Shown here in pieces: positions 39,574-50,811 of a DNA stretch of 64,000 nucleotides. This DNA is from Actinotalea sp. JY-7876 (GTDB lineage: Bacteria; Actinomycetota; Actinomycetes; Actinomycetales; Cellulomonadaceae): the NCBI RefSeq assembly GCF_014042015.1, contig NZ_CP059493.1, positions 1,550,001 through 1,614,000 on the forward strand. Reading direction: 5' to 3'. The notes beneath the pieces are model-generated. The model was not told the origin of the DNA. It saw only the letters and a program-made list of their open reading frames with translations, and did no database searches. Within the stretch, counting starts at the first letter, position 1; every line of letters begins with the position of its first letter. A program made the translations under genes and the position numbers.

Positions 39574-39909
39574 ATGTCCGAGGTCATCGACCCGGCAGAG
39601 ACCGACTACCAACGGGTGCAGCGGTCGCAGGAGTTCCAGGACCTGAGGCGACGGTTCCGGAACTTCGTCTTCCCCATGACCGCGTTCTTTCTCGTCTGGT
39701 ACTTCCTCTACGTCCTGCTCGCCGCGTACGCCCACGACTTCATGAGCATCCGCGTCGCGGGGACGATCACGGTGGGGCTCCTCATGGGCCTGGGCCAGTT
39801 CGTGACCACGTTCGCGATCACGATGATCTACGCGAACTGGGCGAACAAGAAGCAGGACGCCGTCGCCGACCGGCTCCGCGAGAGCATCGAGGCGGGTGAG
39901 GTCCGATGA
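39574..39909 (+). CDS. DUF485 domain membrane protein (ActP-associated)
   Basis: The 111-residue protein has two transmembrane helices (about 30-52 and 63-88) and the DUF485 layout: YQRVQRSQEFQDLRRRFRNFVFPMTAFFL in two blocks, then the C-terminal ITMIYANWANKKQDAVADRLR. In many bacteria the equivalent gene (yjcH) is cotranscribed with the acetate/solute:sodium symporter gene actP, as here. The function of DUF485 is not settled; an accessory role for the symporter is inferred. ATG 39574 follows GGAGGC. Confidence 0.93.
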   Translation: MSEVIDPAETDYQRVQRSQEFQDLRRRFRNFVFPMTAFFLVWYFLYVLLAAYAHDFMSIRVAGTITVGLLMGLGQFVTTFAITMIYANWANKKQDAVADRLRESIEAGEVR

Positions 39910-48233: not shown

Positions 48234-48440
48234 TCAGTTCTGCTGCGTCGGCACCATCGAGAGCAGGCCCTCGATCTCGGCAGCGACGAAGCGGCGGTGA
48301 CCGCCGAGGGTGCGCACGGCGCTGATCTTGCCGGCGTTGGCCCAGCGCGTGACGGTCTTGGGGTCGACCCGGAACATCGTCGCGACCTCGCCGGGCGTGA
48401 GCAGGGCGTTGGTCGTCGTGGTGGTGGGGGCTGTCTGCAT
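48234..48440 (-). CDS. bldC: BldC family MerR-like helix-turn-helix regulator
   Basis: This 68-residue DNA-binding protein is a single winged helix. LLTPGEVATMFRVDPKTVTRW is the helix-turn-helix (about 14-34) and ISAVRTLGGHRRF is the wing. This is the near-invariant BldC sequence. BldC controls development in Streptomyces; in non-sporulating actinobacteria its targets are less defined. The N-terminus is a Thr-rich tail. The ATG at 48440 has AAGGA six bases upstream. That ribosome site lies about 8 nt beyond a c-di-GMP-type aptamer, so expression is probably riboswitch-controlled. A palindrome and a Crp-type site lie further upstream. Confidence 0.95.
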   Translation of the reverse strand: MQTAPTTTTTNALLTPGEVATMFRVDPKTVTRWANAGKISAVRTLGGHRRFVAAEIEGLLSMVPTQQN

Positions 48441-48455
48441 GTCGTGTCCTTGTCA

Positions 48456-48534
48456 TCTGGTGGCTGGGCTGCCCTGGTCGGGCCCCTGGCTTTGCGTCCC
48501 CGCCTTGCGGCGGGTTTGCCCTTGTCTGTGACGA
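48456..48534 (-). promoter_or_regulatory. c-di-GMP-I (GEMM-type) riboswitch upstream of bldC
   Basis: On the minus strand the RNA reads GGGCAAACC (48513-48521), a six-base-pair stem closed by a GCAA GNRA tetraloop (48505-48508), then GGGACGCAAAGCC (48488-48500). A second hairpin follows (GCCC-GACCA-GGGC, with a conserved-type CAGCC) and then GCCACC. These are the ordered core motifs of the GEMM-I aptamer: the GGGCAAACC strand, the GNRA-capped P1b hairpin, and ACGCAAAGCC. The 3' edge is about 8 nt from the bldC Shine-Dalgarno. Ligand identity (c-di-GMP versus the cGAMP-selective variants) cannot be settled by eye. Confidence 0.9.
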
Positions 48535-48541
48535 GGCGGTG

Positions 48542-48558
48542 GTCCGGATGATCCGGAC
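48542..48558. repeat. 17-bp perfect palindrome upstream of the bldC riboswitch
   Basis: GTCCGGAT-G-ATCCGGAC is an exact dyad around one central base. It is just upstream of the aptamer and about 15 bp downstream of a TACCGT -10 candidate (minus strand, 48574-48579). It looks like an operator. Confidence 0.55.
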
Positions 48559-48615
48559 TCCGTGCCTCACAACACGGTATCGGGGACGAACCGGACAGGC
48601 TTGAGGGCGCGCCGA

Positions 48616-48631
48616 TGTGATCTACGTCACA
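48616..48631. promoter_or_regulatory. Crp/GlxR-type binding site
   Basis: TGTGATCTACGTCACA matches the consensus TGTGA-N6-TCACA in both half sites and has the central TA of the actinobacterial GlxR form. It is centred about 56 bp upstream of the inferred bldC start of transcription and about 85 bp upstream of the uvrB start. This spacing makes activation of bldC the likelier role. Confidence 0.75.

Positions 48632-48708: not shown

Positions 48709-50811
<2,103 letters not shown>

Follow-up and report, generated by a model that had tools for sequence, protein, structure and literature searches.

The window analysed here, a stretch of 64,000 nt from the genome of Actinotalea sp. JY-7876, carries on its minus strand a short regulatory gene preceded by a series of closely spaced control elements (Table 1). 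In a profile search the gene product matches NF033787 HTH_BldC at 96.1 bits (cut-off 77), which places it in the BldC family as the preliminary description of this DNA had proposed; the assignment can be refined in that this is one of three bldC genes in the genome among the matches listed, two of them with a riboswitch and the third, at G000:C1:362514, with no aptamer match. Read towards the gene, the elements are a Crp-type site, a promoter box that was absent from the preliminary description and sits between the Crp site and a hairpin, the hairpin itself, and an aptamer that ends 15 nt before the start codon. From the expected transcription start, the leader would be ~130 nt long.

Table 1. 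Elements of the bldC control region and flanking genes, in window coordinates.
Feature	Position	Strand	Basis or remark
Crp-type site, perfect TGTGA-N6-TCACA	48616..48631	.	pattern match
WhiG/sigma28-type promoter box CTCAAG-N16-CCGATA	48578..48605	-	exact pattern; PWM 16.6
-35 of promoter box	48600..48605	-	
-10 of promoter box	48578..48583	-	
Expected transcription start, ~7 nt past -10	48569..48573	-	predicted from promoter class
Leader hairpin GUGAGGC...GCCUC(GU)CAC	48528..48570	-	fold -22.1 kcal/mol, z -2.8
17-bp dyad GTCCGGATCATCCGGAC	48542..48558		tip of leader hairpin
c-di-GMP-I aptamer (RF01051; RF03167-like), G20/A47/C92 present	48456..48530	-	Rfam match; covariation in relatives
P1 3' strand TGAC	48452..48455	-	can pair with GTCA 48529-48532; abuts Shine-Dalgarno
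Shine-Dalgarno AAGGA	48447..48451	-	read from sequence
bldC paralogue, 68 aa, ATG at 48440	48234..48440	-	NF033787 HTH_BldC
uvrB-like gene, divergent neighbour, ATG 48709	48709..50811	+	outside module; named from own sequence

All of the GEMM-I core elements named in the preliminary description can be seen on the minus strand, and a cmscan search of the 64-kb window returned a significant match to RF01051 of 45.7 bits against a gathering score of 35 (E 9.9e-6). On the short stretch, RF03167 (c-di-GMP-I-GGC), a model of the same aptamer, scored 57.3 bits, above the RF01051 score but 1.7 bits below its own cut-off of 59. This puts the window aptamer within the class I clan and on the border of a variant that Rfam already lists. 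Among 13 aptamers scanned in loci of relatives, the best match over cut-off was RF03167 in 8 (L012, L052, L044, L032, L042, L066, L063, and one of the two aptamers in L075) and RF01051 in 5. The positions G20, A47, and C92, which we take to be ligand contacts in Vc2 numbering, are all present in the window aptamer; an alignment of 45 distinct leaders has them in 43/45, 45/45, and 45/45, respectively, and the consensus fold of these leaders contains 20 pairs, 8 of which show two-sided changes. These features point to a class I aptamer whose ligand would be c-di-GMP. An A at position 20 shifts class I riboswitches towards cGAMP, a specificity that we rejected for the window copy on account of its G20. 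Elsewhere among the 45 leaders, position 20 is A in the sub-type S leader of G063 (L042; sub-types are defined below) and C in a leader of G047 (L058). One detail had to be corrected: the aptamer had been described as ending about 8 nt before the Shine-Dalgarno sequence, but the Rfam match stops 4 nt before it and the P1 strand TGAC touches AAGGA.

The bldC leaders were compared across the Cellulomonadaceae by running an aptamer search and a BldC search over the same 121 genomes and intersecting the tables, an aptamer and a BldC match being counted as a pair when they lay on one strand with the aptamer upstream by no more than 80 nt. Aptamer matches, 125 in all, occurred in 38 genomes and BldC matches in 119. 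Among the matches listed, 47 aptamer-bldC pairs were counted, and they cover every aptamer genome except G022 (37 of 38); a predicted riboswitch on a bldC-class gene is in this respect a feature of the aptamer-bearing genomes as well as of the window. Six aptamers of the window genome exceed the cut-off, and two of these are paired with bldC; G066 and G050, which recur below, fall in the same genus group (g1). Numbers of bldC copies lacking an aptamer were counted among the matches listed and are to be read as "at least" values. Of 80 named BldC loci among the matches listed, 14 have an aptamer (9 Cellulomonas, 4 Actinotalea, and 1 Micrococcales MAG) and the other 66, which include Streptomyces, Actinomadura, and Nocardiopsis as well as three Cellulomonas loci (L159, L162, and L163), have no aptamer match. 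In a wider draw from the class, the aptamer was present in 43 of 394 genomes, window genome included, and a BldC motif was found in 0 of 29 class-draw aptamer loci from other genomes (L110-L138), with three positive controls found. The DNA-binding core of the BldC proteins is closely similar over the 80 rows compared, which suggests that the paralogues may share targets. Class I aptamers also lie before very short ORFs of 49 and 30 aa (L001 1501-1577, ~11 kb from flhA, and L002 1501-1575) and before an EAL (phosphodiesterase) gene (L006 1501-1577), where feedback on c-di-GMP is possible.

The 47 pairs were divided by script into sub-type S, in which the leader contains TCAAG...CCGAT or a Crp site followed by TCAAG, and sub-type L, which takes in the rest. 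Eight pairs in 7 genomes are S, including the bldC gene of the window with its Crp site, CTCAAG-N16-CCGATA-type box, hairpin, and aptamer, and 39 are L; the features of S are partly circular in that the promoter box or Crp plus TCAAG was used for picking. The whole S arrangement is also found in A. solisilvae (L147), a locus recovered by protein likeness alone and outside this picking. A BldC tree built on 59 columns, most of its forks weak, places 7 of the 9 S rows together (95/89) and those of G050 and G099 apart from them. Many L leaders have, by eye, a housekeeping-like promoter of the TTGC-N17-CATAGT type with its start beside the aptamer. The window genome's second riboswitch-bearing bldC (L004/L067, G000:C1:2446694-2446997, minus strand) is of sub-type L, its leader having a PWM score of 0.1 and no Crp-type site within 250 nt. 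A motif like ATGTCCGG was seen by eye in many S and L leaders (e.g., L050, L071, and L005), where it falls between -35 and -10, and is possibly a site for a further regulator.

In excerpts of PMC8325347, WhiG is described as sharing the flagellar promoter consensus TAAA / GCCGATAA, with a rule that allows at most two mismatches, and pili and DGC/PDE genes are under WhiG control in Rubrobacter. The window box has three mismatches to this consensus and matches the family box CTCAAG-N16-CCGATA exactly; three of the eight S boxes pass the two-mismatch rule. Searching for TCAAG-N(13-18)-CCGATA gave 8 matches in the window genome versus 0 for the reversed pattern, and 30 versus 3 in the six other S genomes. 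The 27-nt form stands before pilM and before a LuxR-type gene in 7/7 genomes, and the set further includes two GGDEF genes of the window genome and a pilT-like gene of G063; the proteins were named by Pfam for the window genome and the G063 gene, and by sequence likeness for the others. The individual loci are L092, L227, L234, L236, L237, L250, and L255 for pilM, and L094, L230, L231, L240, L247, L251, and L254 for the unnamed LuxR-type regulator. The remaining box matches resemble chance (e.g., L089, which lies within a coding frame or at its end).

A PWM was built from 20 pilM, luxR, GGDEF, and pilT promoters with bldC excluded, the training set consisting of exact pattern matches. It scored the eight S leaders at 20.6, 19.3, 16.8, 16.6 (window), 14.9 (the far copy of G099), 8.5, 6.0, and -0.3, the low values belonging to the second copy of G066, G063, and G119, respectively; the 39 L leaders reached at most 5.2, in a split between S and L that is partly by construction. 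Across 80 kb around the flagellar cluster of the window genome, one site scores above 13, namely 15.6 at 39601, and this is at the flagellar sigma gene itself. This lone WhiG-type box at the start of the gene (G000:C1:39601, L096) may reflect a link between WhiG and swimming, or chance. The recurrence of the box before pilM and LuxR-type genes in all 7 genomes points to WhiG, which we favour on balance as the sigma factor that would use it. A WhiG-type sigma factor (TIGR02479 over cut-off) is present in 56 of the 121 genomes, comprising 38/38 aptamer genomes and 18/83 others, an association for which the Fisher test ignores ancestry. RsiG-like matches occur in 26 of the 121 genomes, all of them among these 56, with 8 over cut-off; the window genome's RsiG-like protein scores 20.9-21.1 bits against PF22802, below the cut-off of 27, and the c-di-GMP motif E(X)3S(X)2R(X)3Q(X)3D was not found in five candidate RsiG loci (L142-L146).

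The preliminary description had also noted a perfect TGTGA-N6-TCACA, which we take to be the Crp site consensus. The site is there, and it is the only match in the window at up to one mismatch, though at that tolerance a match turns up in 35 of 100 shuffles as well (mean 0.49); taken alone it is weak evidence. The 3.55-Mb genome contains 7 perfect sites and the reversed control 1, those other than the bldC and flagellar sigma sites being judged by reading ORFs. Comparison adds to this, as a Crp-type site is present in 8/8 S leaders and in 7/7 of those picked by promoter box alone. The promoter-adjacent copy is perfect in 7 of the 8, the near copy of G099 having one mismatch. The spacing is conserved: 11 nt separate the Crp site and TCAAG in seven of the eight S leaders, the window included (one G066 copy was read by eye), and 10 nt do so in G119. 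By comparison, only 3 of 39 L leaders have such a site (≤1 mismatch, within 250 nt). In G099 (L100, G099:C19) the Crp site and WhiG-type box occur in tandem before one bldC, and the far Crp copy is perfect.

Crp-type sites are also found near flagellar genes. The window genome has a perfect site ~180-200 bp before its flagellar sigma gene (L096, G000:C1:39460-39475), and the corresponding stretch in 15 other genomes contains one at up to one mismatch in 14, of which 12 are perfect; the total, window genome counted, is 15/16, with none before the flagellar sigma gene of G013. As background, 88 kb contained 2 sites, one of them the window genome's own flagellar site. Within 150 nt of the 20 PWM training promoters, there was no Crp-type site (0/20). 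Crp thus appears to be tied to motility in these genomes.

The 17-bp dyad reported earlier is present, but it is better described as the tip of an RNA hairpin than as a DNA operator, because the hairpin, and not the letters of the dyad, is common to the S leaders; the operator reading was dropped as first choice. A hairpin ahead of the aptamer, its fold ends chosen by us, is found in nine S leaders (the eight plus L147), with z-scores of -2.8, -2.5, -2.0, -3.6, -2.0, -2.3, -1.7, -0.9, and -2.3. By eye, the stem letters vary with matching changes in their partners (GAGGC/GCCUC, GAGGU/ACCUC), but the hairpin was not recovered when RNAalifold was run on a sequence alignment of the S leaders. We regard its presence in S leaders as likely.

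The distance between aptamer and start codon is 12 to 22 nt in 45 of the 47 pairs, and 2 and 5 nt in two for which an upstream ATG was taken. An intrinsic terminator platform was rejected, there being too little room for one in the 15 nt of the window or the 12 to 22 nt of those 45 pairs. P1 meets the Shine-Dalgarno sequence without a gap in 26 of the 41 leaders scored, and this, combined with the lack of room for a terminator, makes translation the likely regulated step. Imposing P1-P3 lowered the predicted accessibility of the Shine-Dalgarno in 0/6 S leaders and raised it in 2/6, and in sub-type L lowered it in 13/35 and raised it in 3/35. This analysis covers 41 of the 47 leaders, with assumed starts 66 nt (S) or 14 nt (L) before the aptamer; the chosen start codon gave no Shine-Dalgarno in G115, G102, G063 (L042), and G089 (L039), and in G053 and G008 the aptamer is identical to that of another row with unmatched flanks. 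Since accessibility is not lowered in the S leaders, the OFF sign rests on the precedent of tfoY, a motility transcription factor in Vibrio cholerae whose Vc2 riboswitch is, in excerpts of PMC7371385, a translation-level OFF switch, c-di-GMP acting at the promoter as well. By analogy, c-di-GMP probably lowers translation of the bldC paralogue.

The explanation we prefer, and hold with reasonable but not high confidence, is that the locus is a multi-input control region in which a WhiG- and Crp-linked bldC paralogue is switched OFF by c-di-GMP. The WhiG-type promoter would drive transcription with cAMP-Crp, sitting 11 nt ahead of the -35, as a helper or gate, and the leader would fold into the hairpin and then the class I aptamer, with the closing helix P1 ending against the Shine-Dalgarno. 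Binding of c-di-GMP would close P1 and bring translation down, such that the BldC paralogue would be made at high cAMP and low c-di-GMP, the state expected of a motile actinobacterium as it leaves a surface. As type IV pilus, GGDEF, and LuxR-type genes of this family are preceded by WhiG-type promoters, BldC would join a pilus and motility programme as one more regulator. The two features behind the dual readout that had been suggested for bldC, a c-di-GMP-I riboswitch on a bldC-class gene and a Crp-type site at conserved spacing, hold as far as the sequence tells. Comparison among genomes shows the aptamer, its linkage to bldC, the arrangement of promoter and Crp site, and the presence of this promoter family at pilus genes, whereas the ligand, the OFF direction, use by WhiG, activation by Crp, and the targets of BldC are inferences.

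Parts of this scheme could be read differently. The sign might be reversed, with c-di-GMP freeing the Shine-Dalgarno or stabilising the message and the paralogue made at high c-di-GMP, as the rise in accessibility in two of six S leaders and its fall in none would favour; the contact of P1 with the Shine-Dalgarno in most leaders scored, the hiding of that sequence upon closure in 13 of 35 L leaders, and the OFF behaviour of Vc2-tfoY (PMC7371385, in part) all argue against it, and we consider it unlikely, if still a real contender. That a flagellar FliA-like sigma factor uses the promoter, which would put the gene in the flagellar regulon, seems improbable to us. Such a factor recognises the same promoter class as WhiG in excerpts of PMC8325347, G066 has two of these bldC genes ~7 kb away from its flagellar sigma gene, and 33 of the 38 aptamer genomes have FlhA, as do 22 of the 83 others, numbers that like our other genome counts are inflated by shared ancestry. 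The flagellar cluster itself, however, offers just the one site above 13 described above, and TCAAG-N16-CCGATA is kept before pilM in 4 of 6 genomes without FlhA or a flagellar-type sigma match, although in two of those four (G004 and G046) the reversed pattern is as frequent or more so (4 versus 4 and 11 versus 7).

We see very little chance that the Crp-type site serves the divergent uvrB-like gene in place of bldC: the two start codons are 268 bp apart on opposite strands, but in G066, G089, G063, G119, G050, and G099 the module stays with bldC, and the 2-6 kb read there showed no UvrB motif. Decay of the aptamer with loss of c-di-GMP sensing, to which its rank as second-lowest in score of the genome's six might point, is given hardly any weight here, the three ligand-contact positions being kept and all eight S aptamers reaching a class I Rfam cut-off. 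Beyond the preferred reading of an OFF-switched, WhiG- and Crp-linked paralogue, we offer only tentatively, at less than even confidence, a broader one in which c-di-GMP would act twice, at the promoter through an RsiG-like protein and WhiG and, by way of the riboswitch, on the message, cAMP-Crp supplying a third input. The Streptomyces sporulation circuit of WhiG, BldC, and c-di-GMP would then be wired in motile relatives for the choice between pili or surface life and swimming, and BldC paralogues would compete for ordinary BldC targets.

In Streptomyces, c-di-GMP enters the developmental network through the protein BldD. RsiG-WhiG is a further protein route into that network in excerpts of PMC8325347, and the genomes studied here resemble that system in that their type IV pilus and GGDEF genes stand behind WhiG-type promoters; they differ from it, as far as those excerpts go, in the addition of a bldC paralogue with its own RNA sensor of c-di-GMP and in that the RsiG-like protein of the window genome is under cut-off and the strict c-di-GMP motif was not found in it. 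The paralogue shares a closely similar DNA-binding core with Streptomyces BldC (NF033787) but is fronted by an aptamer, which no Streptomyces locus has among the 80 named in the matches listed. As in Vc2/tfoY, a class I aptamer stands in the leader of a transcription factor (PMC7371385, in part), but the phylum and the regulator are different, P1 itself abuts the Shine-Dalgarno, and the locus has an additional hairpin before the aptamer and a sigma28/WhiG-type box with a Crp site a fixed distance away.

The aptamer and protein families are already known; what looks new is to find a Crp site, a WhiG-type box, a hairpin, and a class I aptamer together before a bldC paralogue. A search of the open literature, to which two possible source papers of RF03167 were external, found no description of a riboswitch at a bldC gene, in agreement with what had been stated before; in the parts of PMC11678152 and PMC2374992 consulted, bldC and riboswitch both occur, in passages unrelated to each other. 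A conserved riboswitch on BldC-family genes would constitute an RNA route into the bld/whi network in the Cellulomonas-like clade, where one regulator would be controlled by two signals and probably by a special sigma factor as well. The locus offers a compact promoter-leader for studying how cAMP and c-di-GMP combine, and it links bld/whi genes to pili and swimming, suggesting a role for this network outside sporulation.
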